Both the position numbers and the translations under genes were made by a program. Positions 282-33,056 of a DNA stretch of 33,699 nucleotides are shown here, piece by piece (the first letter of the stretch is position 1; each line of letters begins with the position of its first letter). The notes beneath the pieces were generated by a model, which was not told where the DNA came from, ran no database searches, and saw nothing but the letters and a program-made list of their open reading frames with translations. The DNA lies in the IMG/VR virus record IMGVR_UViG_3300034109_000706, positions 1 to 33,699 of that record; one strand, written 5' to 3'. The stretch is from a virus.

Positions 282-680
282 ATGAACAACAACTACACTA
301 AACCATCATTAAGAGAACGTATTAAGTCACGCATTAAGAATAGTAATGTAGGTGGTACTGCATCTGGTAAATGGAGTGCTAGAAAGAGTCAGATGTTAGT
401 TAAACAATATGAACAATCTGGAGGTAGTTATAAAGGTAAGAAAAATAAGGAGCAGAAGTCCTTAGTGAAATGGGGTTCAGAAAGGTGGGCTACTAAATCT
501 GGCGAACCTAGTAGTAAAACTGGAGAACGTTATCTACCAAGTAAAGTAATAGATAAGTTATCTCCACAACAATATGCGGCAACTTCGCGCAGCAAAAGAT
601 CAGCTAATAAACAAGGTAAACAATACTCAAGTTACTCACCTAATTTAAATCGAGTTATGAGAAGTAGTGGTATTTATTAA
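282..680 (+). CDS. DUF5872-like basic protein
   Basis: This 132-residue, strongly basic protein has a half from about residue 60 onwards (LVKWGSERWATKSG, then GERYLPSKVIDKLSPQQYAA and a Lys/Arg/Ser-rich stretch) that matches, from memory, the DUF5872 family. That family is found in phages and large viruses and has no established biochemical role. The many Lys and Arg residues suggest nucleic-acid binding. The gene lies directly after the minor head gene and ends 4 bases into the convergent gene at 677-1480. The ATG at 282 is preceded only by an A-rich stretch and no clear Shine-Dalgarno sequence. An internal DNA-binding virion protein is possible but not shown. Confidence 0.75.
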   Translation: MNNNYTKPSLRERIKSRIKNSNVGGTASGKWSARKSQMLVKQYEQSGGSYKGKKNKEQKSLVKWGSERWATKSGEPSSKTGERYLPSKVIDKLSPQQYAATSRSKRSANKQGKQYSSYSPNLNRVMRSSGIY

Positions 681-1480
681 CTATTAACTAACTTACGAAA
701 ACACATATCTAACATAGGAATCATTTCAACTTCATAAGCTGATGTATTAGGTCTATATCTACCTTTACCTAACTTAACGTTAATTTTAGTTGGATTATTA
801 CCTGTAGTTGTTTTATAAGTATCGGCAACTAAATTAGCGAATCTGTGCATTGTGGATTTATCTGCAACAAAACCCTTACTCTTAATATAGTCACTTAAAA
901 TGACATATCCATTATGAGTTGTTAGTTCCGTAGTTACAGTTAACTCATTTAACATTACATCAAGATTAGGAAAGTTAGTTATTGTTGCATTTCTAAGTTG
1001 TTTATATTCTGTAGTTATATTAGATAATTCATCTACTTTATCGCTAAGTAACTTAAGTGAATTAAGTATGGCTTTATTATCATCATTAACAACAGCACCA
1101 GTTAAATCCTTAACCCAATTAACGAAACCATATTGAGCTAACTTACGATAAGTATTACGTGCAGTAACATTAGCAGCTTTAGATTCATACGAGTAATACT
1201 CAACAAACATAGTTACTGCAATTGAACTTACTATTTTTGCACCATTAATTCCTTCAACCCCCAGGTTAAAAGTCTTATCCCGTAAAGGTTCTAATGATTC
1301 TGGAACTGTTTTACCCCCAGCATCAGATAAGTTGTTAATAACCTCACGAATGGTACTTCTATCAACACCACATAATCGAGCCAATCCACTAATACTAACA
1401 CCAGCATCCCGTCCATCTGGAGTAATGTAAAACTCAACATCATTAATAACAGAGGGTTGTACAATAATTTTATCTGACAT
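677..1480 (-). CDS. Regulator-like protein with predicted N-terminal HTH (paralogue of 16072-16902)
   Basis: This 267-residue protein has an N-terminal block VEFYITPDGRDAGVSISGLARL followed by CGVDRSTIREVINNL, which looks like a helix-turn-helix (about residues 27-52). A middle segment with FVEYYSYES and ARNTYRKLAQYGFVNWV follows (about 95-125), then a separate C-terminal segment beginning YIKSKGFVADKSTMHRFANL. The same order is found in the protein at 16072-16902, so the two are paralogues. I remember similar proteins from cyanobacterial genomes and prophages, without proven function; an antirepressor or transcription regulator is an inference. The gene runs against the surrounding structural operon and has a good ribosome site (AAGGA) upstream of the ATG. 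Its upstream region carries a TATAAT box and a perfect inverted repeat. Confidence 0.8.
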   Translation of the reverse strand: MSDKIIVQPSVINDVEFYITPDGRDAGVSISGLARLCGVDRSTIREVINNLSDAGGKTVPESLEPLRDKTFNLGVEGINGAKIVSSIAVTMFVEYYSYESKAANVTARNTYRKLAQYGFVNWVKDLTGAVVNDDNKAILNSLKLLSDKVDELSNITTEYKQLRNATITNFPNLDVMLNELTVTTELTTHNGYVILSDYIKSKGFVADKSTMHRFANLVADTYKTTTGNNPTKINVKLGKGRYRPNTSAYEVEMIPMLDMCFRKLVNS

Positions 1481-1509
1481 GACTAATTCATCCTTAATTA
1501 ACTACACTT

Positions 1510-1553
1510 GACTTAGATACAAACTAACTAACTATCTAAGTCACCTCATTATA
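1510..1553 (-). promoter_or_regulatory. Candidate promoter -10 and palindromic operator for the 677-1480 gene
   Basis: On the reverse strand a TATAAT box (complement of 1548-1553) is followed within a few bases by a perfect 10-bp inverted repeat: GACTTAGATA at 1510-1519 and TATCTAAGTC at 1533-1542, separated by 13 bases. The half-site centres are about 23 bp apart, roughly two helical turns, which fits dimer binding at or just after the transcription start. I see no convincing -35 box. There is no T-run, so a terminator is less likely. Autoregulation by the downstream HTH-like protein is an inference. Confidence 0.5.
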
Positions 1554-1643
1554 ACTGATAAATAGTTAAAATACATAACATTCTCCTTTTTTCTTACAAG
1601 TTAAACATTTCCAATTATAATTAAGTAAACTACATTAATTAAT

Positions 1644-1949: not shown

Positions 1950-1950
1950 T

Positions 1951-4703: not shown

Positions 4704-4973
4704 ATGTTCCTAATGACAGATATCAATAGGAGTGCTGTCATTAGAACAGCTAACTTCAAACGCGGTCGAGATAAAGTTAAGCGTAAGAAAAAAAAGGGAA
4801 TCAACTACAAAGAAACTAAAGATACAGTTAAAGTAGGTCAAAAGTTAGCATCAACTGGGACTAATATAAGTCGTGAACTTCGTGGTTGGCTCAAATTAGT
4901 AAATCGCACGAAAGATGACCTTCGACGACTTAATTTCCTCAGAGCAGCTAGAAAAATAGCTAAAGGTGAATAA
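4704..4973 (+). CDS. Small basic protein sharing an N-terminal tag with 14229-15002
   Basis: This 89-residue protein is very basic. The start at 4704 is chosen because its first residues, MFLMTDIN and then RGRDKVKRKKKKG, parallel those of the protein at 14229 (MFILNDVN, then RGRDRVKRKSRG). This points to a shared N-terminal segment. The rest is helical and Lys/Arg-rich (KVGQKLASTG, then RELRGWLKLVNRTKDDLRRL), compatible with nucleic-acid binding. An internal start at 4713 is possible. One base separates it from the upstream stop, and it ends directly at the next ATG. One copy of the dispersed GTAAGAAAAAA motif lies in its Lys run (4783-4793). Confidence 0.65.
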   Translation: MFLMTDINRSAVIRTANFKRGRDKVKRKKKKGINYKETKDTVKVGQKLASTGTNISRELRGWLKLVNRTKDDLRRLNFLRAARKIAKGE

Positions 4974-7054: not shown

Positions 7055-7525
7055 ATGAATAATCTACTATTTAAATCTATGAATAACTTTGATATAACAT
7101 ACAGTGACGGAACTATAGATACAGTTAAGCGTGTAACTCGCACTAAGTTAAAGGACTTAATTGTACTACAACAGAAACTCCTCTACTTTTTTCTTACTCA
7201 TAATGCTAATGTCGGGGCTTGTGTTGCTGATGATGCGTGTTGGAGTGTAATTGAAACTACATCTAAATTACTAGCAGTAGTTGGAGATGGAGCAGTCAAG
7301 TTAGAGTTACTTGAGGATAATTTAGAACAGTTAAGTAATATATTCTTCACTACATCTACACCTGAAGAAATAGCTCAATACACTAATATCGGTAAGATGA
7401 TTGAAGCTGAAACATGGTACAAGCCATCTCTCATCAGTCAGTTACATCAACTTAATTATCGAGGAGATAGTGGTGAAGCAATAAAAAAAATGACACAGGA
7501 ACAACCAGAAGTTCCTACGCTATAG
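7055..7525 (+). CDS. Tail assembly chaperone, short form (gpG-like)
   Basis: The 156-residue product is helical and acidic and sits between the tail tube and tape-measure genes, the usual place of gpG-like tail-assembly chaperones. These proteins bind the tape measure during tail assembly and are absent from the finished virion. Near its end the codons read ATA AAA AAA ATG across an A8 run (7483-7490). Ribosomes that slip back by one base there would make the longer form ending at 7770. Without slippage translation stops at the TAG at 7523-7525. The annotation depends on synteny and the frameshift rather than on sequence motifs. Confidence 0.7.
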   Translation: MNNLLFKSMNNFDITYSDGTIDTVKRVTRTKLKDLIVLQQKLLYFFLTHNANVGACVADDACWSVIETTSKLLAVVGDGAVKLELLEDNLEQLSNIFFTTSTPEEIAQYTNIGKMIEAETWYKPSLISQLHQLNYRGDSGEAIKKMTQEQPEVPTL

Positions 7526-7770
7526 ATTTAGCGGCATTAATTGAGATATATGGTGGTGTTGAGAATGCACTACTACTAGTTAACTCACTAGATGATCTGG
7601 AGATACATGATCTGATTAATCAGACAACTGAGTTACGTAAAGATCCATCAGTTCGAGATGCTGAGGAAGTAGAAAGAGATTGGAATGATTATGTTATTAA
7701 TAATGATCTAGATCAGGAGATAATCGTAGACGGTAAGAAAACAAGTATAAATCAATTAATGGGGTTCTAA
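7055..7770 (+). CDS. Tail assembly chaperone, -1 frameshift long form (gpGT-like)
   Basis: After slippage on A AAA AAA (7483-7489), the -1 frame continues without a stop to the TAA at 7768-7770 and adds about 93 residues. This added part has coding character (SYAIDLAALIEIYGG, then NALLLVNSLDDLEIHDLINQ, ending KTSINQLMGF). It has no start codon of its own apart from an ATG two codons before the stop. Its stop overlaps the tape-measure ATG (TAATG). This is the arrangement known from lambda G/GT, where the T extension recruits the tail tube protein to the tape-measure-chaperone complex. The total length is about 238 residues. The frequency of slippage is unknown. Confidence 0.75.
7483..7490 (+). 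promoter_or_regulatory. Programmed -1 ribosomal frameshift slippery site (A8)
   Basis: Eight A residues, read in the zero frame as the end of ATA and then AAA AAA A, form a homopolymeric slippery heptamer of the X XXY YYZ type. A second open frame lies directly downstream. I did not identify a convincing stimulatory hairpin or an upstream Shine-Dalgarno-like stimulator. Confidence 0.7.
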
Positions 7771-10700
7771 TGGATCAATATAATCAAGACGTTAACATTA
7801 ACTTCCAAGGTGAAGATAATATAAGTGGAGTTATTGATAAAGTTAATGAGAAAGTTGGTCTATTACAGAACTCCGTAATGGCGGCTAATTTCGGGTTAGG
7901 TGCATTTGGTAAACAGTTATTTACTAACTCTGATAACTTAGCTAAGTTTACTAAGGTTCTTGGTACAACTGATGTTCTATTAAATAAGACATTTGCAGTA
8001 ACTGGAGTAGTTAAAGTATTCTCAATACTAGGAACTGGTATTAATGATGCGAAAGCTAACTTAGATGGATTTAATGATGGATTGAAAGCAATGCAAGCTA
8101 GTGGACTTGATATTGGCATTATTACGCAATTCACGCAATTACAAGATGCAGTATTAGGAAGTCGTAATGCTCTAGATTCATTTAGTTTAACTGCATTAAC
8201 TACATTTAATAGATTCAATAAAGTTAAATCAGAAGTAGCTACATTGTTTCCTGAGAATGATCCATTTATTAAGAATCTATCTACTAGTATTCAGAAACTA
8301 GTTAATGAGGATCTTAAAAATGCAGTAACTAGTATTGACGCATTAAAAGCTAGTTATGAAGCTGCGTCGTCTGGTTTTACTGAAGCTGCTGATAACCAAG
8401 CTGTAATGACAGCAGGACTTAAATTAGCTAAAGCTGGTGGTGCTGATACTGGAGCAACTATGAAGGTACTTGCTCAAACTATTAGTGCTTATAATCTGAG
8501 TGCTGGTGATGCAACTAAAGTTAGTGCAGTTCTAAATCAAACTGTACAATTAGGTATAACTACAATACCAGAATTAAGTAATGGTTTTGCTCAAGCAGCA
8601 GTAACAGCTAACGCAGCTAAGATTAAATTGCAAGAGTTAGGTGCTGCTGTAGCAACATTAACATTAAAAGGTTTTGACACAAACAGTGCATTAACAGGTA
8701 TTGAATCATTATCGCGCGTAATTATCAGCAAAACTCCTCAAGCTGCTGCTGCATTGCGAGAATTACGTGATGAAGGTGGTAAACCAATTAGATTTGACGT
8801 TAGTGAAATAAAAGCTAAAGGTCTTACTAAAGCAATACAGGATTTAAATATAGCAGCTAAGGGTAACGTTGAAGTAATTCGTGAAATAATTGCAGATTCT
8901 ACTTCTTATAATACTTTCTTAGCATTAGCAGCTAATAACTCTGAGAAATTGGGTGAATTTACTCAGAAGATGTTTGATGTTAGTAAAACAGGTGAAGTTG
9001 CACGTAAAGCATTAGATAGTGTATTTGGAATTAAATTAAATAACCAAGCTGAAACATTCGATGCAATTGTAAATAGAATAACTGAACAATTCATACAATT
9101 TGGTGAACAGTTAGCTCCATTCTTTGACACTGGAGTTAAAGCATTAGAAACGTTCACTAAAACATTATCTGGAATTAGTCCAGAAATGAAGAAGACTATA
9201 GCATCAATATTGCTAGGTCAATTAGCATTTAATAAAGTAACTGATACTATTGGTATTTTAGTTGGAACTATAACTAAAGCATTCTTAGCATATCAAGGTT
9301 TGCGAGTAACCTTGATGTTCATGAATGGAACTATAGGTGAACAGTTCAACTTAATTAATGGATTAATTAAAACTAAAGCAGGATTAGTTCCCGTAATTAA
9401 ACAGTTAATGGGATTTGATCAATCACATCTATTAATACAAACTAAATTAAATACAGTTACTAAAACTAGGGGTGAATTGCTTAAAGCTGTATTTACTGGA
9501 GAAGGTGATAGATTAACTAACCTTAAACAATTAGTTGGTTTAGAGAAACAATATGAACTTAATGTAGGTGAGTTAAACAAAACATTAGATGGTAGAAATA
9601 AGATACTTGATAATCAAGTAGATAAAGTTAATGGAGTTATTAAAGCAACGGCTAAAGTAAAGGATGCTGAAGCTACAGCTAACTCTATTAAACAAGAAGG
9701 TCTACAACTATTAGATGAGTTAGAGATATCTAATGCTAAACAACTTGATATTAAAACTAAATTAATTAAGGTAGAAGATGATCTTAAATTAGGTGGTTCT
9801 AATACTGTTGCATTACAGAAGGAATCAATACTACTTAATAATCAATTAACTAATTCACTTGATGAACAACAACAACTACAAGAGTTAATTAACGTAAATA
9901 ACGTTAAGTATGGTGATGCAACTAAAGCATTAGTAACATCAGAACTCGCACTTGATTCAACTAGACTTGCAGCTAAGGAAAGACTTAGTGTTATAGTTAC
10001 TAAACAATTAGCTATTGAACAACTGCAAGCTAACTTAACTATCTATAATGAGAAAGCAGTTAAGTTATCTACTGCTGCTGAGTTATTAAGAACTAAAGCT
10101 AAAGTTGATTCTGCCAACGCTTCTATTTTCTTACAACGTGCAGAGTTTCTACAAACTAAATCAACTGAATATGCAACGTTAGCAACTACAACTCAAACTG
10201 CTATTATCGCTGGTAATGCAGAAGTTAGAAAACTTAAAATAGCAGCATCATTAGCAGAACAAGTTGCTGATGGTAATTTAATTAAAGTACAAGTAGGTTT
10301 AGGTACTAGTTACATTGCTAATAGTTTACTAACGAGAATACTGTTCTTCGATATTACTAATTTAGCTGGAGCTACTAAAGCAGCTAGTGTTGCAGGAACT
10401 GGATTTGCAGGTGTAATTGGTGGTTTATGGACAACATCAATTGGTATAGCTAGTGCAACATTAAGATTCCTAGATGCTCAACTTACAACACTGTATCTTA
10501 AATTAGCTCCATTTACATTAGCGTTAGCTCCCATAGCAGTAGCATTAGGATTAATTGGTACTATTGGTTATGAAGCATTCTTCGGAATGACAGGTCAATT
10601 AAATAACTTAAATAAAGAATTAAAAGAATTAGATAAACAAGGACAACTTAATTTAATACGTGAATTAGATAAATTACAAATTAATAAACAACTTAATGAA

Positions 10701-13700
10701 TCAGAACAGAAGAGATTACAACTATTGAAAGAATCAGTAAGTGTAGCTAAAGAAGCTGATGAAAGTTCTAAAGGTGTTATGGATCGTGTGGGCGATTTTA
10801 ATAATACTATAGAAAAGTTTAATGCAACTAAAATTATATTTAATGGTATTATCAGTGGATTTGGTAAAGTTATTAATTTATTTAGAGCAGATGCTGTAGT
10901 AAAAGTTCTTGATGATATAGATGTTGCATCATTAAAAACTCGTGATTCTATTAATGAATTAACTAAATCAACTAAGAAACTTCAATTGGGATTTACTGGA
11001 ATTGAAGAAGTAGATAAATTAATTAAGCAAGGTAAAATACTTAGCGCAACAGACATAGATAAAATTGCTAATGAAGCTAAAGTTGCAACTAAGAGAACTG
11101 AATTAGAAATATCAATTAATGAAAATAAAATTAAGGCAGTTAGTGAACAACTTAAAGATTTCGATAAGTTAAGTATTGAAGAACGTAAACAAGCTAGTGA
11201 CCACGAAAAACAATTAGATACACATCGTACAATATTAGAAACTGCTAATGATAAATTGAAAGACGTACTAAGTAAGAAAAAAGAGATAGATAAGGCGCGA
11301 ATAGAATATCAAACTCAACAGAACATATTACTTAAGCGCGTATTAGATAATAATCTGGAAATAGAAAAAGGTAGCACTACTATAGAAGGTGATCAAGGAG
11401 CTAACGCACTTCAAACTAGAATGAAGAAGGGACTTAGATTGGCGCAAACTGATCTAGAACAATATCGTCGTCAAGTTAAAGCAACATTAGATGGAACTGG
11501 TGAATATCTTGATGCTAATAATAAGAAGGTTAAAATTGACGTAACTGATATGACTGATTACGTTAATAAATTTGACACTAATGTTAATGGAGTTATTAGT
11601 AGTATTGATCAGTTATATCAAGTTAATGGTACTAGTGCAACTGAAGCAGCTAAAACACTTAAAGCTGTATTAGATACTAATAAACAAGAGATGAATATAA
11701 CTGATTATATTAATGGAATTAACCAAGCTATAGGTTACATGAGAGATGGAAGTAAAGTAACAATAGACTTACTTAACTTAGAAGGTGAAACTCGACGGGC
11801 TATGTTAGATAGTGGAGTTACATCAACTAGAGAAACAAATGCTGCGATACGTAAGTTAAATGCAGCTAAGTTAGAAGAGGAAATTAATAATCAGAAACAA
11901 CTAATTGAATTTACTAAAGCTACATCTGGTGCAGATCAGAAGAAGTTAGATGCTGCTAAGTTAAAGTTACTTGAACAACAACTAGCTGCACAACAACGTG
12001 ATAATCTTAAAGCTGAATTAGATGAAAGATTTAAACAACAACAAGTAGCATTAGATAGAGAACAAGAGCTAATTAAGTTAGATAAAGCTAAACGTCTTAT
12101 TAGTGAAGAAGAATATAACAATAAGATAGCTGAGGATACTAAACGTAACTTAGATTTAAAACGTAAACAACTACTACAGGAACTAGAGTTAAATAAAAAT
12201 GATTTAGAGAAAACTAAGTCTATTAATAATCAATTACTAGGAATTGATGTACAACAACAAGAGTTAATAACATCTAATTTAGAACGTGCAATTAATGTAC
12301 GATCTAAAAAACGTGAATTAGAGTTAACTAGAGAACAAGCTTTAGTTGTTTTGAATAGAAGTAAGTTCTTAACTACTGAAGAACAATCTATCAGAGATAT
12401 AGATGTGGTAAGAAAAAAGGAGATATTAAATAAACAACTATCTCTTAATGAACAACTTAAGTTAGTTGAACATGATAAAACTAAACAGACGGAAATACAG
12501 AATCAATTACTTAATCTACAGTTAGATTATCAGAAGATAATAACTGATAATTTAGAACGTGAGTTTACTAAACGTAGTAAACTCATTGAAAATGCCGCGA
12601 ATAGAACTAAGTTAGTTTACCGTGAATTAACTAACACCATTGATAATAATGTAGCATCACTTAACGAAGAGAATAAGATAATAGATAGTCGTAATAAGTT
12701 AACATCATCTACACTTGAAAATGAAAGTGCGCGATTAACTAACTCACTTAAAGTAACTAACGATATTGAGAAACGTGCTGCTATTGAAACTAAGATAGCT
12801 CAACTGCGCGAATCTAATCGTGTAGTTACAGATGCTACTGAACAACGTAGTTTAATTAATCAACAGAAGTTAATTGAATTATCATTGCAGAAACAACAAA
12901 TAGAGTTAGATAGTCGGCGCAATGATGCTAATAATAACAGTAAGTTAATACAACTTGAGTTAGAGAAAGCTATTAAACAGAAGAGAAATAAAGAAGATAT
13001 AGATGCAATTAAAATTAGATTAGATGCTAATAAACAAGAACAATTAGCTATCACTAAACAGAATGAGTTACTAGATGTAACTAAACGTAATCAAAGTGAG
13101 ATTAATAGTAATGCAAGTAGAGAACTAGAGATTAGACAACGTATAGGTAGAGAAGGTGGATTGCTCGATCTAGAGATAACTAAACAAAATGAGAAAATAG
13201 CTAGGTATGAGAAGATTGCACAACTGGCAAATCTAGAAGCTACAATTGCAGAAACTAATGCTAATAAAATGCAATTAGCTGGTGATCTACAAATTAAAAA
13301 TTACCAAATGCGATTAGACCTTCTTAATAAACAAGCTGAATTAGAACAACAGCATCAAGATAATACACAACGTATGTTTAAGATGGCTGAGGGATTAGCA
13401 GTAAGTGATTATCAGAAACGTAAGTTAGCAGAACAAGCTGCTAAACAAGAGTTACTTAACCTTAATAAGAAACATCAAATAGAACGTGATATATTAGCTA
13501 TTCAAATTAAGATGAATGAACTAGCTCTAATTAAAAGTGAGTTAGATCAAAAGAGTGCCGAAAAGAAATTAGCAGCAGAACTTAAAGTACAAGAAGCTGA
13601 AACAGCTAAAGTATTAAAGAGTAGAACTGCAACTGATGAAGAGAAGAAAGGATCATTAGCAACATTAGATGCTAAGAAGTTTGCATATCAAGCTAAGTTA

Positions 13701-15002: not shown

Positions 15003-15035
15003 TTTGACAACGTAAGAAAAATAGGATAACTAATC

Positions 15036-15659
15036 ATGTATCAATTTAGTATTTCAATTCCTCTAATTAAATGTTACGTTCGCAATGAATATCTATTTAA
15101 CTTAGAATCTGGTTATGGTGAATTTACTCCAGTTGTTGTGTTCGGGTTAACTAGTTTAACTGGACGTGCAATTGGATTTCACATAATGACTAATGGTGGC
15201 GCACAAATAGCACGAGTTCCAATTAGTGCATTAGTTAGTAGAGTTGATGCAAATAACTTAAATCTTGATTGGTTACAATTATGGGATTGTTTCAGTTATC
15301 AAACTCAAGTTGTTTCTTACGATTATCTGAAGGAAATGAAATGTAAGGTTCTACTTAAAGATAAGAACTGGTATCAAGGTGAATATGTATTTACTATTGA
15401 TTGGATAGGTGGTGATTGGGCAGAAGAAGCTAGTGATTATAAATGTGGACATCTAATTAAATTAGATAATGGATGTTATGCAATTCAACCTAATAATCGT
15501 ATCTATTGGTTAGGTGATCCATCATTCATAACAGAACCATTAACTGAGTTTCCTGGTTATAAGATTAATACTCATAATTGGAAGTGCGAGAATCAAGATA
15601 AATGGGTAACTGAGAATACAGATAATTATTTTTATCATATTGACAAAGTTGAAGAATAG
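15036..15659 (+). CDS. Conserved phage protein of unknown function
   Basis: This 207-residue protein is rich in aromatic residues and mostly beta. It has a conserved-looking distal block (CGHLIKLDNGCYAIQPNNRIYWL, then DPSFITEPLTEFPGYKINTH). I recall similar phage proteins with the pattern QPNNRIxW...DPSF, annotated only as hypothetical. A good ribosome site (AGGATAAC) stands before the ATG at 15036, and a ten-base match of the dispersed motif (GTAAGAAAAAT) lies immediately upstream at 15012-15022. It ends the tail gene block before the non-coding and tRNA region. Confidence 0.65.
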   Translation: MYQFSISIPLIKCYVRNEYLFNLESGYGEFTPVVVFGLTSLTGRAIGFHIMTNGGAQIARVPISALVSRVDANNLNLDWLQLWDCFSYQTQVVSYDYLKEMKCKVLLKDKNWYQGEYVFTIDWIGGDWAEEASDYKCGHLIKLDNGCYAIQPNNRIYWLGDPSFITEPLTEFPGYKINTHNWKCENQDKWVTENTDNYFYHIDKVEE

Positions 15660-18233: not shown

Positions 18234-18321
18234 TATCTACCTCATTTATTAACTTAGTTAACTCATCTTCAGTTAGGACTACACTACTATCATCACCTAC
18301 TTTAATCAACTGATATATCAT
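18220..18321 (-). CDS. 33-residue coupled small protein
   Basis: The ATG at 18321 overlaps the stop of the DUF551-like gene (ATGA at 18318-18321). The 33-residue product MIYQLIKVGDDSS... LTEDELTKLINEVDNVRI ends 14 bases inside the ClpP-like gene. It therefore bridges what would otherwise be an 84-base gap in an operon whose other genes all overlap. The distal part looks like a single amphipathic helix (TEDELTKLINEV). No function can be assigned. Confidence 0.6.
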   Translation of the reverse strand: MIYQLIKVGDDSSVVLTEDELTKLINEVDNVRI

Positions 18322-18590
18322 AGACGTAATAAAACAGGGAGATTGGCGAAATTAGGACAATAACACCATTCAATTACAGGTGTATTAATTAAACTTGCAG
18401 GTATTTGTTGATTTATGTAAAATTCTCGATCTTTAAAGTTATAATTTCCATTATTAATTACTAATTTACCAGCACGCCATATTACCTTAATTAATAAATT
18501 TTTACTATAAGGATAACTACTATAGTTATCATCAGGTAACATCTCATCTACACTAAACCATTCTAATTCTATTACTTGTTTCTTACTCAT
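18318..18590 (-). CDS. DUF551-like protein
   Basis: The 90-residue product begins with EWFSVDEMLPDDN, continues with a strand of the type LLIKVIWRAGKLV, and ends with VIEWCYCP. This is the W-x-S-V-x-x-x-L-P ... V-x-x-W-x-x-x-P layout of DUF551, a small family common in phages and without known function. It is the first gene of the leftward operon. It faces the rightward tail gene at 18635 across a 44-base gap that must hold both promoters. I could not define those promoters confidently. Confidence 0.7.
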   Translation of the reverse strand: MSKKQVIELEWFSVDEMLPDDNYSSYPYSKNLLIKVIWRAGKLVINNGNYNFKDREFYINQQIPASLINTPVIEWCYCPNFANLPVLLRL

Positions 18591-21801: not shown

Positions 21802-21968
21802 ACGACTATATGAAGTTACTAGAAGATGAGTTAAGAAGACTAGTTAAGAATAAGGTTACAGTTAATGTAGTTAATAGTAATTATGTTATTGATGTTAGAG
21901 GTAAACAAATAACTGTACCTCTAACAAATACAACAACCGTAAGAAAAAATAGTATTAAGAGTAAGTAG
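21798..21968 (+). CDS. 56-residue protein coupled to the tail hub gene
   Basis: The ATG at 21798 overlaps the hub stop (ATGA at 21798-21801). The product MNDYMKLLEDELRRLVKNKV... is 56 residues and ends KNSIKSK. It has a charged N-terminal helix followed by beta-type residues (VTVNVVNSNYVIDVRG). Its last 14 bases overlap the convergent gene 21955-22374. It carries a copy of the dispersed motif at 21939-21949. It may be a small tail-tip or chaperone protein; the role is unknown. Confidence 0.6.
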   Translation: MNDYMKLLEDELRRLVKNKVTVNVVNSNYVIDVRGKQITVPLTNTTTVRKNSIKSK

Positions 21969-22374
21969 CGTCCTCGTATTTAAACCTACTATAATAACGT
22001 TCCTCTACTATATGTTTCTCACTATTTAATACACCATGTAATTTAATATTTCCCTCTTTAATTTGTTGATCTAATGCTAATTTAAGTAAAACTAAATCTA
22101 TGTTATGTTTAGTAACTAGTTCATCTAAGGTATAACCTTTAGGTAAACTAGCTTCTTTTAACTGTAATTTAAATAGATCAAGTAATACTGGTTGCACATA
22201 ATCACTATGGCGTAATAAATAGGCGCGATTAATTGATTGTTCTATTTCTAATTTAAGCGTCTCTTCTTTTTTCTTACATTCATAAAGTTCATTTAATTGA
22301 GTTAAATAAACTGGTTTATTATCAACTAACATTAGTTGAAGTAGTTCATTGATTGCTTTATCTAGATTATTCAT
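21955..22374 (-). CDS. Unknown helical protein
   Basis: This 139-residue protein is strongly helical and charged: DKAINELLQLMLVDNKPVYL, then a Cys-Lys-Lys-Lys-containing helix and LLDLFKLQLKEASLPKGYTL. I recognise no family. It is the last of three leftward genes joined by ATGA overlaps and converges with the small hub-linked gene. It carries the dispersed motif in its Lys run (22267-22277). Regulatory or host-interaction roles would fit a reverse-strand accessory gene, without direct evidence. Confidence 0.6.
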   Translation of the reverse strand: MNNLDKAINELLQLMLVDNKPVYLTQLNELYECKKKEETLKLEIEQSINRAYLLRHSDYVQPVLLDLFKLQLKEASLPKGYTLDELVTKHNIDLVLLKLALDQQIKEGNIKLHGVLNSEKHIVEERYYSRFKYEDATYS

Positions 22375-22867: not shown

Positions 22868-22903
22868 ATATTATAATTACTCATATACACTATTTTCTTA
22901 CTC

Positions 22904-25900
22904 ATGACAACAACCTATAGTTCGGGTAAATTACAACTTACATTTAATTCAGGTAATGTATCTGTAGTTAATGGTTCAGGTAACTTAGGAGTTACAGGAA
23001 CTTACTATATCTCTATTCAAGGTCGGAATCTAATTGGACTTAATCTGAATAGTACATTAGTTCCAGTTACTTTAACTACAACATCTACATTAACTATAAC
23101 ATTACCATCATTAGCTAGTGGTGAAACTTGGTCTGACATAGTTATATCAGCATCAACTACTAATAACGTATCTGCCTTAACTCAAGTAATGGTAGTTAAT
23201 AGTGCTGATTTTAATTCGCCAGTTATATTAACTAGTGTTGAGTTGTTCAAGCTAACTACACTTGCTCGTACTGTAGCTAACTCTGCTGCATTACCAGCAA
23301 CACCAATTCAGGGACTTATAAGATACATAACTAACCTCAACTACTACTATGAATACGATGAATACAGTACAGCAACTGTAGATAACTTAACTGTATTAAC
23401 TGCAACTACTGGTAGATGGCTTAGAGTAGGTGCAATTAGTACGTATATAACTGATACTACAGCTACAGATGGATGTGATCAAGATGTTCGCACACCTAAT
23501 CTAATTGTTAATGCACCATCATATACTTGTGATGGTAGTAAAGGTGATGGAGTTACCTTCTGGTTACGTAATGAATTTAGCACTATTATTTCAAGTGGAA
23601 CTAGAATTAGTTGTACTGTGCGATTATTTGAGGAAGATAAATCTCAATTGTTCGATAGTCTCCTAATACTAGAACTACTTGGTTATGTTAATTTAATAAC
23701 TGGAGTATTAGATGCTTCAGTTAGTAGTGGTGAAGTAACTTATCAACCTCGTAGTCAATGGTTAACATTACCAGAGGATCTCGACATTGGTTATGCTGCT
23801 GTAGTTAGAGTTAGTCCTAAATTCACCATTACTGATTTAGATAACAATGTTCCATATCTAGCTAACTTAACTACATACGTTACATTTGCTCCAACTAGCG
23901 GTATCTATACTCCTGGTGTATTCGGCAACTTAATTTACAACGAATATGATAAGTGGCGCATTTATTCTGATGTTGGACTTAGTGTAATTAAGAGTAAGGG
24001 TAGTGGAATAGTTAATAATTATGAACTTAATGATATATCCGCCGAAACTATAACAGGGTTAAGTTCTAATACCGCCAACCAGTATATTTTTCTTACTAGT
24101 AATGGTACTTCGTTCGCATCAACTACTAGTTCATTCGTTAGTGCAGTTAAGCGATGTGTAGTTAGTACAGTTAATGGTATAGGAACTCCAGTTAGTTATG
24201 GTAGCTTCGCGTTAAATAACACTAAGAAGTTATCTGTAACTGTTAATTATCCAACTAGTGTTAGAAGTAATTATCCTGATGCTCTTATTGCAGGTTCTAG
24301 TAAAGGTAAGTTTAATGCAACTAATGTTGTTATCTATATTAAGAATAGTAGTAATGCCGTATTCGTAACTGAAGTTAACATAACTCCATCTGCTAGTAAT
24401 GATGTTTATGTACTTAATTATAGTGACTTTACTAGTTCTACATTAGCAACACCATCTAGTAATTATGGTTTATATACACCATTAAGTGTAACTACTTCAA
24501 CTCCATCTAACAGTAGTACATTTCCTACTGGTAGTTATGAAGTGTTTGTTGCATTTAAATACACTGGAGTTGTTACAGTTATTGATCATAGTGTTAGTGA
24601 GTTATATGAGATAACAAGTAACCTGAGTGAGTTATTCTCAACTAGTGCAACAGTATGGTATAGCGATAATGGTGTTCCTAGTAGTTTAATTGGTGAAGAT
24701 GGTTCATATTATCTTAATTATGATAATGCTAATATTTATAAGAAGGTTAATGATACTTGGAGTTTAGATGGAAATATTAGTGTTATTTCACCTTCATTTA
24801 CTACTATTGCAGTTAGTGGACAAAGTAATGTAGTTGCAGATCAAACTAATGATAGTTTAACTCTAGTTGCAGGAACTGGTATTACATTAACTACTAATGC
24901 CACAACCGATGCTATTACTATTACTGGAACTAGCGTCACTAATACATTTAGTACAATAACTGTAGCTGGACAATCTGATATAGTTGCTGATAATGGAACT
25001 GATACATTAACTATTGCTGCTGGTAGTGGTATTACCTTAACTACAAATTCTGCAACTGATACATTAACTATCGCAGGAACTGCTGTTAGTAATACATTTA
25101 GTACAATTGCAGTTAGTGGTCAATCTGATGTAGTAGCTGATAGTGCTAGTGATACTATTACGTTAGTTGCTGGAACTGGAATGACTATTACAACTAACAC
25201 CACTACAGATACTATTACTTTTGAAAGTAGTGGTGTTAATGTTGATGTTACGCGAACTTCTACAATGTCTAATAGTATTGGAACTGGTAGTAAGACGTTT
25301 ACTTATACTGCTAGTTCTAACTTAGGATGGTTAGTTAGTACGAGATTGCGTGCTGCGTATGATGTTTCTAACTATATGGAAGGTGTAGTTACTGCTGTTA
25401 GTAGTACCTCAGTTACTATTACATCAGATAATGCAGTTGGTAGTGGAACTTATACTAGTTGGAACATAACAATAGCTGGAGATAAAGGTTCTACTGGAAG
25501 TGCTGGTAGTTTAAATGCCGCATCTGGATTTATATTAACTCCTGTTGGAAGTCCCATTACTACATCAACTAACGAAGTTGGTTTCTATGTCGATAGCACT
25601 GATAACTTATTTAAAACTAGAGACGTTAATAATGGTACAGTTAGAACATTAGCATCATTAAATAGAGTTCAAGCATTTACTCAAACACAATATGCTACAC
25701 CTGTTATTAATAATTCTGCTACTGGGACAGTAACTTTAGACGGTAGTGCTAGTAATGTTTTCATACTAACTCTAACTGGAAACCTGACTCTGACCATGAA
25801 CAACATTCAAGTTGGAGCAACTTATATCATCTACTTAATTCAAGATGAAACTGGTAGTAGAACTATTACACTTGATGCTATATTTAAACGATTAACTGGT

Positions 25901-26777: not shown

Positions 26778-26816
26778 ATGAAATTTGCTCAACAACTACT
26801 ATCTAACTTATTATGA
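26778..26816 (+). CDS. 12-residue leader-like reading frame
   Basis: ATG at 26778 to TGA at 26814-26816 encodes MKFAQQLLSNLL and overlaps the next start by ATGA. It may be a coupling leader or the remains of a gene displaced by the lectin gene. The evidence is only the junction. Confidence 0.3.
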   Translation: MKFAQQLLSNLL

Positions 26817-28129
26817 ACGAACGTAAATTAATAGATGAAATTAAACGCTTAGTTAACAATGATGTAATTATTGGTTACTATAATGGAACTACATTTACTG
26901 ACGATAATGGTAAAACATACGCTTCCAGCTATTTAGTAACTAATAATTCTCCTATTGGTAGAGGATTCATAGTTCCATATGAAGGTAAATGGTTAGTTGT
27001 AGTAGCTAATAATAATCAAGAGGTAAGAAAAAATATAATAACTAGTAGAAAGAAGATAAGTATTGAAGATAAATCTAAACCTTTAATTGATTATTTATTA
27101 ACTAAAGAAATAAGTTCAACAACTAAGATTAGATTTATATGTGATACATCAGGTTCTCTTGATTATTTTCTTGAGGACTACGACATAATTTTTGCAAATA
27201 TTAAAGAAACCTTAACAGTAATTTATGAAGATACTATAGATACTTATGTGACTAATATCTATTTAGATAATGAACGTTGGTTAAATTGGATGATCCCAAC
27301 TAGTGATAATGAAATTGTTATTGCATTTATTAATGAATCTCATTCAGTATACCATTTACCTTCATATTTAGAGACAGCTGAATTTAACGCTGATAGACGT
27401 AATTTTGAAACAGCATATAATAATAGATATCTAGACCGAAAATTTAAAGGTTTTGTCTATGCTATTGAACCGTTAGCTAACTTTGATAACCATATAACTT
27501 TTGTTTTTGAGAAATACAATCTTGCTAATTATAATCTAAGTTATAAATTTGTTGATAGCGGTATCAGTGCTGGTGCAGTAGAACAAGATTTTCTTGAGTT
27601 TATCATACCAGTAAATAACACATTTTATACAATTAGAGATAACAAATGGAAAAAGTATGAATTACCAGAAACAGTAGTATTAAAAGACTTAAATTATTAT
27701 ATTGATAGTAACTATGTTGTTATAAAAGGTGATCAAAAGGATAAGAGATTTAATCAATTAACCGTTTTAAAAGATGACGTATTTACAACCTATACATATC
27801 CAGAAGAACTTCCTGTATTAAAAACATGGCGCAAAGATGTTTATAATACTTATGATGTTATTGATAACATTTATAATAATAAGCTAGTTACAGTGCATCA
27901 AAATAAATTATACAAGATAATAAATTTACCTGACATTAAAGAACAATTAAGTTTAGGACAATCTATTAATATGGTAAATATTAATAAATGTAGTTTTACT
28001 GAGGATGAAATTATTAGTTGTAGGAGAGAATTTAATAAATTGAAAAGTCCTAAATTAGATACTGATATTATCTCTCCTGAAGAAGTAAAAAAACAAACTA
28101 TTTTTAGCACTTATATTAAATTTCAATGA
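26813..28129 (+). CDS. Conserved cyanophage/prophage-type protein of unknown function
   Basis: The 438-residue product starts with VNNDVIIGYYNGTTFTDDNG, then SSYLVTNNSPIGRGFIVPYEGKWLVV and a basic RKNIITSRKK. I recall proteins with this beginning from cyanobacterial prophages and phages, always hypothetical. Several short beta-repeat-like segments follow (NNTFYTIRDNKWKKYELP, and NKLVTVHQNKLYKIINLP), so a beta-propeller-like or fibre-associated structure is possible. It sits between the lectin gene and the portal gene, and both its ends are ATGA overlaps. It carries the dispersed motif at 27023-27033. A virion role is likely from position. Confidence 0.65.
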   Translation: MNERKLIDEIKRLVNNDVIIGYYNGTTFTDDNGKTYASSYLVTNNSPIGRGFIVPYEGKWLVVVANNNQEVRKNIITSRKKISIEDKSKPLIDYLLTKEISSTTKIRFICDTSGSLDYFLEDYDIIFANIKETLTVIYEDTIDTYVTNIYLDNERWLNWMIPTSDNEIVIAFINESHSVYHLPSYLETAEFNADRRNFETAYNNRYLDRKFKGFVYAIEPLANFDNHITFVFEKYNLANYNLSYKFVDSGISAGAVEQDFLEFIIPVNNTFYTIRDNKWKKYELPETVVLKDLNYYIDSNYVVIKGDQKDKRFNQLTVLKDDVFTTYTYPEELPVLKTWRKDVYNTYDVIDNIYNNKLVTVHQNKLYKIINLPDIKEQLSLGQSINMVNINKCSFTEDEIISCRREFNKLKSPKLDTDIISPEEVKKQTIFSTYIKFQ

Positions 28130-29674: not shown

Positions 29675-30475
29675 TTATAAAATACCAAGAGCTACTAGTT
29701 CATTGTATAACACTTCTATATTACATTGATAATAAGTATAGTGAGAACCACTTCCACCATAATAGTCATCTTCATGAATTTCACCCATTGAGCAGCTAAT
29801 CGCATATAACTTCTTATAGGTAAGAAAACTAATGGTCGGATCTATGCTAGTAATGAGATTATCAAATTGCTCAAAATTAGCTAATGGTTCATCGCCATCG
29901 TAGTATGTAATTTCATCATTCCAACAGTTACCCCTACTACCACCAGTAGACCAACTATCTGATTTGAGATATGGTTGATTGATAGTACAACCTAAATTAT
30001 ATTTATCAGAGAATACTAACCAATCTGGTTTAACTGCAACTTTATGTAACTTCATAGTAGTATTCTCAAATAACAATTTAAGTTCATCTAAGTTAGGTAC
30101 ATCTAGAGTTAATGTCTTAATGCTAAACGCACTAGAGATATCACGTCTATTAACATCATTAATTAAACACTGATTACGATTCTCTTCCCAGTAATGTATC
30201 TCTATCTCAGTTAACTCTTTATTCTTAACTAGTGCATTAATAACTAGAGTTAATTGTTCATTAGTGTGAATTAAACCATCAATGATAAATGTATTAGTTA
30301 TATAACGAATATAGTTATCTAACCTAGTTAACTTATTAACTGCATTCTTCTTATAACGTTTAAGTAGATCATCAAAATCAATATGTCTAATAAGTTTATT
30401 ATTAGATGATTCTAGTTCCTTCGCAAATGTAGTTTTCCCACTACTCGGCAATCCCATCAATATTAATACTTTCAT
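29675..30475 (-). CDS. P-loop kinase, polynucleotide-kinase-like
   Basis: The 266-residue product opens with MKVLILMGLPSSGKTTF; GLPSSGKTT (residues 8-16) is a Walker A motif of the AAA_33/polynucleotide kinase type. It continues with a HIDFDDLLKRY segment (strand plus Asp pair) and EIEIHYWEENRNQCLINDVNRRD, a typical Walker B/lid-like region with E-x-N-R-x-x-C-L-x-N-D. The C-terminal 110 residues form a separate Tyr/Asp/Gly-rich domain that I do not recognise. The substrate may be a nucleic-acid 5-prime end or a nucleotide. Its start lies 35 bases inside the resolvase gene. Confidence 0.75.
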   Translation of the reverse strand: MKVLILMGLPSSGKTTFAKELESSNNKLIRHIDFDDLLKRYKKNAVNKLTRLDNYIRYITNTFIIDGLIHTNEQLTLVINALVKNKELTEIEIHYWEENRNQCLINDVNRRDISSAFSIKTLTLDVPNLDELKLLFENTTMKLHKVAVKPDWLVFSDKYNLGCTINQPYLKSDSWSTGGSRGNCWNDEITYYDGDEPLANFEQFDNLITSIDPTISFLTYKKLYAISCSMGEIHEDDYYGGSGSHYTYYQCNIEVLYNELVALGIL

Positions 30476-30926: not shown

Positions 30927-30943
30927 GATTATAGTTAACTTAA

Positions 30944-31426: not shown

Positions 31427-31889
31427 AATCTGCAAACGTTATGTTATCTAATTTAACTTGATTAATTAATGTCCAGTTACTCCAATCCAAATTAAGATAT
31501 CTATCACCATTAACTACATTATAAGTATGAGTAATAAATAACTTAGTTACATGAGGTAACAGCGTAGCATAGATACTAGATCCACCTATTATCCAGATAG
31601 GTTTGTTATATGATCTAGCTACACTGATTGCAGTATTAATATCACTGATGAAGAATGTCTCAGATTCGTTAGTAGTCAATCCCTTGTCGCGCGTAATGAT
31701 GATATTAACGCGGTTAGGAAGCTTCCTAGAGCGTAGATCACCTCTGAAGGTATTAGCTCCCATTATGACTACTCCACCTGTTGTGAGTGCCTTAAAACGC
31801 TGCATATCGGCACAGTCATAATTAACTAATTTGCCGCCATTACCAATGCAGTTATTGAGAGATATATTAGCTATTAGATTCATAATCAA
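31410..31889 (-). CDS. folA: Dihydrofolate reductase
   Basis: The 159-residue product has the normal bacterial length. NLIANISLNNCIGNGGKLV forms the first strand and Met20-type loop. YDCADMQRFKALTTGGVVIM then MGANTFR gives the catalytic Asp and the T-x-G/MG-x-x-T pyridine-nucleotide region, RVNIIITRD follows, and IWIIGGSSIYATLLP is the NADPH-binding GG motif. It reduces dihydrofolate to tetrahydrofolate with NADPH, supporting thymidylate synthesis during phage DNA replication. A thymidylate synthase is not in this window. The ATG overlaps the upstream ATPase stop by ATGA. An ATG two codons later (MNLIAN) is also possible. Confidence 0.9.
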   Translation of the reverse strand: MIMNLIANISLNNCIGNGGKLVNYDCADMQRFKALTTGGVVIMGANTFRGDLRSRKLPNRVNIIITRDKGLTTNESETFFISDINTAISVARSYNKPIWIIGGSSIYATLLPHVTKLFITHTYNVVNGDRYLNLDWSNWTLINQVKLDNITFADYDLRN

Positions 31890-32806
31890 TTCCTTTGTCT
31901 AGTTATCCACTGTAATATTGTATTAATTTTAGTATCAGGTTCTACAGCTTTAATTAAATCAGCAATATCTTTATTTGATAAACTTACATTTTCATCATAA
32001 ATCTGTTTTCTTACCTCTGATTTATTTTTATATTCATTAGGATCTACTTGCCATTCAATACTTCCATTTTCTAATTTAAAGATGTAATTTGTTTCATCTA
32101 TTTGTTCAATGTTATTTTTAATTTGATATAAGCGTTTAATTTTCTTATTAGGAGATGGTTGATCTAATGCCCAAATAATTTCAGGATATTGAACTATACC
32201 ACTAAAACCGCGTACCGATCTAGTAGTGTATTTATTATCCTTAATTTCACTCTTGTTAACTAATTGAGTAAATACAACTGCAATATTATATTTAAGAGCG
32301 ATAGTAGCAAACCATTGTAGACAAGGTAGAACTTGACACGTATTTTCATCAACAATATTAAATCCAGATAACGAATCAACTATTAATAGTTCAATGTTTT
32401 CTGATTCAATAATCTTTTCAATTAATTCAATATCATCACTAACGTTATATGTAACTATCTCTAGTGGATTTTTAGGTGTAATGTAGTTGTTTCTACTACC
32501 ACCTAATAAATCAATACGTTTAACGAATGATTTAATACGACCTTCTGTATCAATAATTAATACTCTACCTGTATCTTTAATTTCATAATCTTCTCTAGGT
32601 AAAAATGGTATATTACTAGTTATTGATAAACTAGCACCAACTAGACACCAACTTTTACCAATACCACCTTCAGCAACTACAGCACTAACACGACCTTTAG
32701 GAAATAAACCTCCTATATATTCAACTTCTACATTTTCAACTTCAAGATTCATAACAGTGTGTCCTAAACTTGGAATATATAGACTTTCAACAAATACATC
32801 ATTCAT
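31886..32806 (-). CDS. RepA/AAA_25-like ATPase
   Basis: The 306-residue product has IGGLFPKGRVSAVVAEGGIGKS with Walker A AEGGIGKS (45-52), RVLIIDTEG (82-89), and Walker B ELLIVDSLSG (139-148). AVVFTQLVNK then TTRSVRGFSG is typical of RecA-fold AAA_25 proteins such as plasmid RepA-type helicases and phage recombinase-like ATPases. The C-terminus NKDIADLIKAVEPDTKINTI...QWITRQRN looks like a winged helix for DNA binding. It probably acts in replication or recombination as a helicase or loader. It is the ATGA-coupled neighbour of the dihydrofolate reductase gene. Confidence 0.85.
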   Translation of the reverse strand: MNDVFVESLYIPSLGHTVMNLEVENVEVEYIGGLFPKGRVSAVVAEGGIGKSWCLVGASLSITSNIPFLPREDYEIKDTGRVLIIDTEGRIKSFVKRIDLLGGSRNNYITPKNPLEIVTYNVSDDIELIEKIIESENIELLIVDSLSGFNIVDENTCQVLPCLQWFATIALKYNIAVVFTQLVNKSEIKDNKYTTRSVRGFSGIVQYPEIIWALDQPSPNKKIKRLYQIKNNIEQIDETNYIFKLENGSIEWQVDPNEYKNKSEVRKQIYDENVSLSNKDIADLIKAVEPDTKINTILQWITRQRN

Positions 32807-32903
32807 CTTATTAAGGGTTTATATGTTGTATATGATTAATTATAAACTACAACATTGTCAGGGGTGGATAGGAAATGTTGTAAATAAAATAATTAAGTAT
32901 TAT

Positions 32904-33056
32904 TTAAGATTCATAATCCATAACAATACAGGTAAGTAAGAAAAAAGGTAGGGCGATTTCAACACTTGTATAATCTGATGCTAAGTATCTATCCGCCACT
33001 CCAAACATGAATCCGCCAGTTAGTAATGTGAAACTAATCCATCTCAGTTGTTTCAT
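32904..33056 (-). CDS. 50-residue probable membrane protein
   Basis: ATG at 33056 to TAA at 32904-32906 encodes MKQLRWISFTLLTGGFMFGV..., with two hydrophobic segments (about residues 6-20 and 34-46, the second ALPFFLLTCIV) separated by a short charged turn. This looks like a small two-span membrane protein. It lies in the 358-base region between the ATPase gene and the acidic protein gene. A holin-like or host-membrane role is possible but unsupported by context. The dispersed motif (32936-32946) lies within it, antisense to the gene. Confidence 0.5.
   Translation of the reverse strand: MKQLRWISFTLLTGGFMFGVADRYLASDYTSVEIALPFFLLTCIVMDYES

Follow-up and report, generated by a model that had tools for sequence, protein, structure and literature searches.

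The virus represented by the analysed stretch (33,699 nucleotides of IMG/VR record IMGVR_UViG_3300034109_000706, hereafter the window) carries a dispersed 11-mer, GTAAGAAAAAA, which is almost certainly a real signal. It belongs to a family of words found in large viruses related to cyanobacterial phages, in which about 100 copies occur per genome and the version of the word differs by lineage. In four of these genomes, copies on the same strand avoid each other, and copies on opposite strands are placed independently. The explanation that we favour, at slightly less than an even chance, is that the words mark where discontinuous DNA synthesis is primed and that the phage's own primase reads them.

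The window contains 11 exact copies of GTAAGAAAAAA, as stated in the preliminary description. A further 11 copies match it at ten bases; only three of these had been counted. The 22 matches with at most one mismatch compare with a mean of 2.55 and a largest value of 6 in 100 dinucleotide shuffles. For the exact 11-mer, the Markov expectation in the window is 0.02-0.09, in agreement with the earlier estimate of well under one copy by chance. The core proved to be shorter than the 11-mer reported earlier: GTAAGAAA occurs 22 times (1.7-2.8 expected), with 11 copies on each strand. The flanking GT, described as nearly constant, precedes AAGAAAAAA in all 11 occurrences in the window. The positions 3' of the core are patterned as well (A/C/T, then A/T, then purines).

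Within genes, both sense and antisense copies were found; some of the latter had been noticed already. Sense copies on the plus strand are GTAAGAAAAATAAGG (436..450, in ORF 282-680), GTAAGAAAAAAAAGG (4783..4797, ORF 4704-4973), GTAAGAAAAAAGAGA (11272..11286) and GTAAGAAAAAAGGAG (12408..12422), both in the tape measure gene (7770-14195), GTAAGAAAAAAAGCT (16393..16407, ORF 16072-16902), and GTAAGAAAAAATATA (27023..27037, ORF 26813-28129). Those on the minus strand are GTAAGAAAAAAGAGT (17574..17588, ORF 17251-17730), GTAAGAAACAAGTAA (18572..18586, ORF 18318-18590), GTAAGAAAAAAGAAG (22263..22277, ORF 21955-22374), and GTAAGAAAACAGATT (32000..32014, ORF 31886-32806). Antisense copies were located on the minus strand at 7183..7197 (GTAAGAAAAAAGTAG, ORF 7055-7525), at 10120..10134 (GTAAGAAAATAGAAG) and 13941..13955 (GTAAGAAAATAAGTT) within the tape measure gene, at 15306..15320 (GTAAGAAACAACTTG, ORF 15036-15659), and at 24082..24096 (GTAAGAAAAATATAC, ORF 22904-26005). 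One antisense copy is on the plus strand (GTAAGAAAACTAATG, 29820..29834, ORF 29675-30475) and has the full core with two mismatches to the 11-mer. The intergenic copies are GTAAGAAAACAAGTA (7733..7747), GTAAGAAAAATAGGA (15012..15026), GTAAGAAAAAATAGT (21939..21953), and GTAAGAAAAAAGGTA (32936..32950) on the plus strand, and GTAAGAAAAAAGGAG (1583..1597) and GTAAGAAAATAGTGT (22887..22901) on the minus strand.

The enrichment also holds in the rest of the genome. In G002, a 111.6-kb contig of the same species as the window, 87 copies of GTAAGAAAA were counted versus 1.3-2.8 expected; they lie on both strands, and within genes as well as between them. Of 100 copies of GTAAGAAA in this contig, 79 are within genes (46 sense, 33 antisense) and 20 between genes; the near balance of sense and antisense copies does not support an RNA-level signal. 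The sense frames of the word encode GKK, SKK or VRK, so that it might simply reflect codon usage, base composition or lysine-rich proteins, but such an origin can be practically dismissed. The coding sequences of G002 hold 71 copies of GTAAGAAAA (42 sense, 29 antisense) versus a mean of ~10 and a maximum of 20 in 200 codon-preserving shuffles. In another word-bearing genome, G406, 52 copies of its word lie in coding sequences versus at most 9 in 100 such shuffles, and 49 lie outside. The shuffles, together with the intergenic copies, uphold the earlier statement that lysine codons do not explain the word. A comparison of strains revealed 2 variable positions over the 11 bases of the motif, where 28 were expected, with the depletion at offsets 0-10. 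These data support the conclusion that the motif is a phage DNA signal under selection.

The exact word is not retained across relatives: PA-SR01 and Pam2 contain only 2 and 3 copies of GTAAGAAAA, respectively, yet both carry another word of the same build. The words of related phages are GGCAGAAAAR, GTCCGAAATAA, CCRTAGAAR, and GTTAGAAA. All consist of a lineage-specific 4-base block followed by GAA and an A- or purine-rich tail of about 9 bases, which gives a footprint of about 15 bp. At least five versions occur across the phages, and G002, G406, and G408 have about 85-100 copies per genome. The relative L193 (8.8 kb, major capsid protein 73% identical) has one GTAAGAAA with 1.2 expected and no clear word of its own, and a search for further members of its lineage found none. 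Nodularia phage 2AV2 is without a word of this build. The score of the best 8-mer alone was rejected as a means of separating motif phages from controls, because the controls LMM01, L244, and L242 (56, 149, and 79 per 100 kb) reach or exceed the motif-bearing G407 and PA-SR01 (45 and 39). Only strand balance and same-strand avoidance separate the two groups.

The avoidance, which exact words also showed, was assayed with PWM sites as the ratio of observed to expected pairs within 600 bp, with the use of 5000 label permutations per genome. For same-strand pairs, it was 6/26.3 in G002, 13/35.1 in G406, 3/20.8 in G408, and 10/31.1 in G407, whereas the opposite-strand pairs gave 27/26.9, 40/35.7, 26/20.5, and 37/31.6, respectively. 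None of the 5000 permutations yielded a same-strand count as low in any of the four genomes, which carry three different words and have mean same-strand spacings of 2.2, 1.9, 2.7, and 2.2 kb in the same order. As a control, 15 top words from five control records were analysed, and none of them avoided the same strand (lowest P 0.29). Of the 13 genomes tested, the remaining nine had weak avoidance or none. Within the GGCAGAAAA clade, PA-SR01 gave P 0.014 at 1000 bp, Pam2 0.052, and the other six 0.08-0.42; at 600 bp, no avoidance was seen in Pam2, G401, and G402. It was also absent from G409 (6/5.4 observed/expected). From this contrast between same-strand and opposite-strand pairs in G002 and three divergent relatives, we conclude that the word acts strand by strand.

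In G002, orientation is not tied to transcription (56 of 100 copies run with it, P 0.27), so that a transcription signal, one of the roles suggested in the preliminary description, is not supported. Orientation is roughly balanced in each quarter of the contig, with no polarity along the genome. Neighbouring copies are in opposite orientation in 71 of 99 cases. Pairing was rejected as the reason for this alternation, because a strand-shift control still averages 62.8 switches (P 0.03 for GTAAGAAA and 0.37 for GTAAGAAAA); most of it results from the same-strand spacing. It seems improbable that a regulatory or other DNA-binding protein of the phage binds the words throughout the genome, in the manner of mycobacteriophage stoperators or of a BstA/BRO-type protein. 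Stoperators are asymmetric 13-14-bp words with 20-30 copies per genome and lineage-dependent motifs, according to the available part of PMC6550527, and BstA/BRO-like proteins are encoded in the window (677-1480 and 16072-16902). However, stoperators follow the direction of transcription, repression fails to explain an avoidance limited to one strand, and BstA-like genes were not detected in the word-bearing G408, G409, and G398. On the last ground, a BstA/BRO-like protein was also set aside as the reader.

Priming sites for discontinuous synthesis would account for the strand-specific spacing as follows. The asymmetric ~15-bp signals, of which these phages maintain approximately one per 2 kb of each strand, would be used whenever their strand becomes the lagging-strand template. 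The phage's T7/DnaG-like primase would then read the complement of the motif, and DNA copying would be restarted again and again at the words. The 4-base block (GTAA in the window phage) would remain unprimed as the 3' flank that the zinc domain contacts, and GAA with the A-/purine-rich tail would be copied to give a primer of about 12 nt. The candidate templates are the complements of GGCAGAAAARAAA and GTAAGAAAAAAGG. The lack of orientation polarity along G002 counts against this reading, under which both strands must serve as the lagging template and forks would probably cross the genome in both directions. In the T7 system, the available part of PMC12839067 describes Okazaki fragments of about 1-6 kb, none of them shorter than 1 kb, an influence of 10 nt of the 3' flank on the primase, and a possible contact of the zinc domain with this flank. 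The mean same-strand spacing of 1.9-2.7 kb in the four genomes is compatible with Okazaki fragments. A selected signal of 9-15 bases would be unusually long for a primase, since the same part of that source describes DnaG-type enzymes as needing a core of only 3-5 bases. The weak avoidance in the GGCAGAAAA clade, the lack of it in G409, and the missing word in L193 also speak against priming sites.

A T7/DnaG-like primase with a zinc ribbon and a TOPRIM domain is encoded next to a helicase and is the candidate reader of the word. Its sequence contains a CxxC...C..C zinc motif, EGEKCA, and DND, and its Pam2 ortholog is annotated as DNA primase. A low-confidence structural model (pLDDT 48.8 overall, about 61-85 in the TOPRIM part) gave the T7 primase 1nui as the top Foldseek match (E 7.2e-6). 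A sequence search against solved structures gave no match, and Pfam reported Toprim only, below the cut-off. A scan with the primase found two new full-length matches, G406 and G407, both of which were found to carry a word of this build; at eight other loci with weaker partial matches, no such word was present among the top words (11 of the 56 loci were examined). Nine proteins were then sought in eight genomes (seven motif-bearing ones and 2AV2). Each of the seven motif-bearing genomes had a detectable primase, helicase, TerL, MCP, and RuvC; 2AV2 had none of these five. The link between the primase and the word is therefore nonspecific, as TerL and RuvC co-occur with the words equally well; the same applies to the helicase and MCP.

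The same search bears on a Chi-like role, which we regard as unlikely, though still a serious rival. In this reading, the oriented word would halt or switch a recombination enzyme or a helicase-nuclease, and phage DNA broken in either polarity would be rescued over a distance of about 2 kb. Chi is asymmetric and active in one orientation, and same-strand spacing would likewise result if selection favoured a single site in each interval and orientation. Apart from RuvC, an exonuclease was detected in G002, G406, G408, G407, and G409. Against this, the exonuclease and the Sak4 recombinase were not detected in the word-bearing PA-SR01 and G398, and both were rejected as readers. A host Chi should also be enriched in the host; among 386 cyanobacterial genomes, which may not include the true host, none approaches the phage density of the exact 11-mer. 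A few of them are 2- to 3.5-fold above the reversed control (22 vs 8, 14 vs 4, and 15 vs 6). In addition, the available part of PMC5101192 states that recBCD is less conserved in cyanobacteria, where larger genomes often lack it, and quotes Chi words of 5 and 8 bases, shorter than the footprint found here. The host search also does not bear out the earlier suggestion that the word is shared with the host genome. Of the roles proposed in the preliminary description, those of host sharing, uptake, and transcription were not supported; a selected phage DNA signal was, with replication as the best fit.

Programmed single-strand nick sites of the phage T5 kind, made or sealed in replication or packaging, would fit the strand-specific action and the spacing, but we give this reading little credence. 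Nicks in T5 are confined to one strand, while the words are on both. The T5 nicks have a consensus according to the record annotation, but it is unlike the word. As to an enzyme, two products of G002 could nick DNA, a GIY-YIG nuclease and a protein that weakly matches HNH (E 1.6e-4); family scans covered about 34 of the 147 ORFs of this contig.

How a primase chooses a few active sites among many candidates is called still elusive in the available part of PMC12839067. If the words are priming sites, the answer is written into these genomes in at least five versions, and matched primase-word pairs can be tested at once. More tentatively, the genomes may bear a strand-autonomous replication grid, in which a lineage-private word about every 2 kb per strand is selected despite the turnover of positions and is read by the phage's own primase. 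In that case, a natural genome would encode its lagging-strand initiation sites as addresses instead of relying on chance short words, and the word would be a replication identity tag separating phage lineages. Even with another enzyme as the reader, the word is selected, strand-autonomous, and self-spacing, with a copy about every 2 kb of each strand, and our literature search found no description of such a genome-wide signal. The word probably also restricts the choice of synonymous codons, and it may hinder recombination between lineages of these phages.

Several known systems resemble these words in part. Uptake sequences of Neisseria and Pasteurellaceae similarly reach about one copy per kb and are found on either strand, within genes as well as outside them. 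DNA uptake is indifferent to strand, whereas here only same-strand copies avoid each other, so the uptake-like word proposed in the preliminary description is not supported. Chi sites of RecBCD/AddAB are also dispersed, asymmetric, and orientation-dependent words, but here no searched cyanobacterial genome is at phage density, the footprint is about 15 bp, and same-strand copies avoid each other, which to our knowledge has not been described for Chi. HIP1 of cyanobacteria (GCGATCGC) likewise reaches the order of one copy per kb, with 98 copies in Nodularia phage 2AV2 versus 1.2 expected. The phage word cannot be equated with HIP1: the word is asymmetric and GCGATCGC is absent from G002, whereas HIP1 is a palindrome of host genomes (PMC5101192, available part). 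Stoperators of cluster A mycobacteriophages are similarly asymmetric, dispersed, and lineage-specific, but in the available part of PMC6550527 they are transcription-oriented and number 20-30, while the words here are balanced, about 85-100 in number, and mostly in genes (79 of 100 in G002). The priming sites of T7 gp4 and DnaG share strand specificity, a single-stranded template, and a 3' flank, and a TOPRIM primase structurally similar to that of T7 is encoded here. The lagging-strand region of T7 contains 504 copies of 5'-GTC-3', of which only a few are active sites (PMC12839067, available part). Unlike in T7, it is here the long word itself that is under selection and recurs about every 2 kb on both strands.

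The 11-mer GTAAGAAAAAA was found in the window, a 33.7-kb IMG/VR virus record, in 11 exact and 11 one-mismatch copies (2.55 expected from dinucleotide shuffles). For exact copies, the expectation under Markov models (orders 1-4) was 0.02-0.09. The preliminary description had counted the exact copies correctly and undercounted the ten-base matches; the nearly constant GT that it had seen flanking AAGAAAAAA precedes all 11 occurrences of this string in the window. The core, GTAAGAAA, has 22 copies, 11 per strand. A search with the portal gene yielded five further contigs, each 100% identical in portal protein. The 11-mer occurs 25, 35, 11, 16, and 1 times in these contigs (68.7, 111.6, 31.7, 60.1, and 14.8 kb), and the reversed control word 1, 0, 0, 0, and 0 times. 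In the 111.6-kb contig, G002, GTAAGAAA is present in 100 copies versus 6.4-9.6 expected, split 50/50 between the strands, and GTAAGAAAA in 87 versus 1.3-2.8, which confirms the enrichment in the rest of the genome. None of the 21 words obtained from the 11-mer by one base change within its first seven positions occurs in G002. The information spans about -1 to +14: A or G and GTAAGAAAA, followed by A/C/T, A/T, and purines, with G at +14.

Other features of these genomes were recorded as well. G002 contains two further unexplained words, TAAACGTA (43 versus about 10-12) and GGCGCGAT (11 versus 0.2). Several diverged BstA/BRO-like proteins are encoded in the window at 677-1480 (minus strand; phrog_6287) and 16072-16902 (plus), and in G002 at 25130-25948, 40470-41324, and 63711-64562; both window proteins align with each of the three from G002 (28-83% identity). 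The window also carries a tRNA-Pro gene (TGG anticodon; 15816-15889, plus). In G002, the DNA polymerase is apparently split into adjacent ORFs (71547-72983 and 72980-73774), both matching phrog_1252. Further G002 genes (66348-68552, 65710-66351, 77848-78576, 84987-85835, and 85826-86902) encode a ribonucleotide reductase of the B12-dependent type together with a cobalamin adenosyltransferase, and a set resembling RNA repair (Thg1, PNKP, T4-type RNA ligase).

Simple ORF calling gave 147 ORFs that cover 89% of G002. Among the 100 copies, 46 run in the sense and 33 in the antisense direction of a gene, 20 are intergenic, and 1 sits at the edge of a gene. When synonymous codons were shuffled within genes (200 shuffles), the coding sequences held about 10 copies of GTAAGAAAA and at most 20, compared with the 71 observed. 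A coding origin of the word was therefore rejected, in line with the initial view that lysine codons do not explain it. Selection was assayed with the use of 28 contigs and loci of the species group, including the window, which are 0.1-12% diverged and were aligned to G002. Variable positions made up 3.1% of the 100,465 covered. At motif offsets 0-10 of 87 covered sites, there were 2 variable positions versus 28.2 expected; within the core, third codon positions and non-coding positions together had 0 of 355 variable versus 12.1. The flanks varied as expected (96 versus 101.1). A cruder count, in which some sites were counted twice, gave 136 of 139 words kept versus 1654 of 2045 permuted words. 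This data indicates that the word is under selection.

The host of the phage is probably a cyanobacterium because its relatives infect Pseudanabaena and Nodularia. The highest count of the 11-mer noted among 386 cyanobacterial genomes, sampled evenly from a larger set, was 25, in a 7.2-Mb genome where the reversed control gave 61; a few genomes exceeded the control 2- to 3.5-fold (e.g., 22 versus 8, 14 versus 4, and 15 versus 6). The density was near or below 0.012 per kb versus 0.31 in G002. The early suggestion of a host-shared word found no support in these genomes, where the 11-mer does not stand out as a host word. In the Nodularia phage 2AV2 (L060-L062), the cyanobacterial host-type palindrome HIP1, GCGATCGC, occurs 98 times versus 1.2 expected, and the top words are HIP1 and its parts; HIP1 is absent from G002 and from the Pseudanabaena phages PA-SR01 and Pam2. 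Some palindromes are strongly depleted in G002 (L016-L021; AGATCT 10 versus 114, CTTAAG 32 versus 127) and in the phage record G407 (L352-L358; ACATGT 22 versus 87). The depletion resembles avoidance of restriction sites and may give a hint of the host.

PA-SR01 and Pam2 are relatives (portal 23% identical). The exact word GTAAGAAAA is not enriched in them (2 and 3 copies), while a word of the same build, CAGAAAA, is: 133 versus about 43 in PA-SR01 and 132 versus about 42 in Pam2. Its copies lie on the two strands and exceed the numbers given by codon shuffles. The expected enrichment in relatives was therefore seen for the build and not for the exact word. Six more IMG/VR records of this clade (76-88% nucleotide identity in the alignable part) have GGCAGAAAARAAA as their common consensus. 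A primase-alignment scan added, among the matches listed, G406 (111 kb; GTCCGAAA 101 times versus 2.2, inside GTCCGAAATAAWARG) and G407 (132 kb; the degenerate ACCRTAGAARARAAR); 8 of the 11 loci inspected, weaker partial matches, had no same-build word among their top words. A helicase-alignment scan gave G408 (GTCCGAAA, 85 versus 1.6), G409 (GTTAGAAA, 80 versus 11.0), and the 10.8-kb L368 (GTAAGAAA, 10 copies, 5 per strand, 1.2 expected), whose primase is 42% identical to that of G002. Fourteen further loci with remote helicases lacked a same-build word in the top six. When the words are aligned at GAA, the preceding block is GTAA, GGCA, GTCC, CRTA, or GTTA, and an A- or purine-rich tail mostly follows. 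PA-SR01 shares 62 of 104 aligned CAGAAAA sites with G399 of the same clade (12 permuted words, 77 of 281) and 77 of 111 with Pam2 (permuted words, 178 of 339). G406 and G408 (68% identity, 24.8 alignable kb) share only 4 of 16 sites. Individual positions turn over while the word persists.

The best non-palindromic 8-mer per 100 kb scored 34 in T5 (50 kb), 56 in LMM01 (50 kb), 149 in L244, and 79 in L242 as controls, and 158 in G002, 260 in G406, 45 in G407, and 39 in PA-SR01; enrichment of a single 8-mer alone is not decisive. Strongly enriched words were also noted in L393, L315, L325, and L244 (GTAGGGGCG 12 versus 0.1, GTCAGCGAAA 7 versus 0.1, GGTTGCCAGG 11 versus 0.1, and ATTCTCAA 20 versus 1.8). 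The first three could be repeats; that of L244 is clustered and strand-biased.

Spacing was then analyzed strand by strand. Within 600 bp, GTAAGAAAA in G002 forms 4 same-strand pairs versus 19.9 expected and 19 opposite-strand pairs versus 20.3; the values for GTCCGAAA in G406 are 4 versus 27.0 and 34 versus 27.5. Permutation of strand labels at fixed positions gave P 0.0014 (600 bp) and 0.00035 (1000 bp) for G002 and 0 of 20,000 for G406 (600 bp). A single PWM procedure was applied to 13 genomes. At 600 bp, it showed strong same-strand avoidance in G002 (6/26.3 observed/expected), G406 (13/35.1), G408 (3/20.8), and G407 (10/31.1), with opposite-strand pairs at 27/26.9, 40/35.7, 26/20.5, and 37/31.6. 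Avoidance was moderate in PA-SR01 (P 0.014, 1000 bp) and marginal in Pam2 (0.052); G398-G403 leaned the same way at 1000 bp, singly not significant (P 0.08-0.42). None was seen at 600 bp in Pam2, G401, and G402, or in G409 (6/5.4). In five control records, no top word among the 15 scored showed avoidance (lowest P 0.29), and several of these words were clustered or strand-biased. Same-strand copies lie on average 2.2, 1.9, 2.7, and 2.2 kb apart in G002, G406, G408, and G407, and 1.9 to 5.1 kb apart in the other genomes, where the value varies with the number of degenerate sites passing the threshold. Since avoidance in those four genomes is confined to the same strand, the function is exerted on a single strand at a time, and a nearby second copy on that strand is not kept. 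The words may be Chi-like signals, as first proposed among other roles, or nick sites; the reading that we favor is priming of DNA synthesis.

What the data establish is the signal and its strand logic; a reader protein and a primer are inferred. Nine candidate proteins were searched in eight genomes by tblastn (E 1e-4). Primase, helicase, TerL, MCP, and RuvC were detected in all seven word-bearing genomes and not in 2AV2, which encodes its own terminase. BstA-like protein, exonuclease, Sak4, and the G002-type DNA polymerase each went undetected in one or more of the word-bearing genomes. The primase of G002 (76624-77457, minus) has CxxC...C..C zinc-ribbon and TOPRIM signatures and adjoins a DnaB/RecA-like helicase. 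For the G406 ortholog, the structural model has low confidence overall (pLDDT 48.8) and fair confidence in the TOPRIM part (about 61-85); its top structural match is T7 primase.

It is plausible, if somewhat doubtful, that the words are sites where the phage primes DNA synthesis with a primase of its own. Against this reading, TerL and RuvC match the primase in their co-occurrence with the words, same-strand avoidance is not universal, L193 (an 8.8-kb relative, MCP 73% identical) has neither enriched GTAAGAAA nor an evident word of its own, and shorter words are usual for primases according to the passages covered of PMC12839067. Literature listings for over-represented sequences, primase recognition, and the letters of the word itself gave no description of it; a term search of the PA-SR01 paper (PMC10286775) matched its reference list only, and the passages covered of the Pam2 paper (PMC9382816) do not mention such words. 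The priming reading draws on T7, as described in parts of PMC12839067: its primase uses a short core with a 10-nt 3' flank, the distal part of which the zinc domain might read, and its Okazaki fragments are about 1-6 kb, with none below 1 kb. The lineage-specific block would lie where the unprimed 3' flank is expected, copying would start at the constant GAA, and the tail would be about primer length. The words recur about every 2 kb per strand. Their balanced orientation would require that, at every location, the two strands can each act as lagging template.
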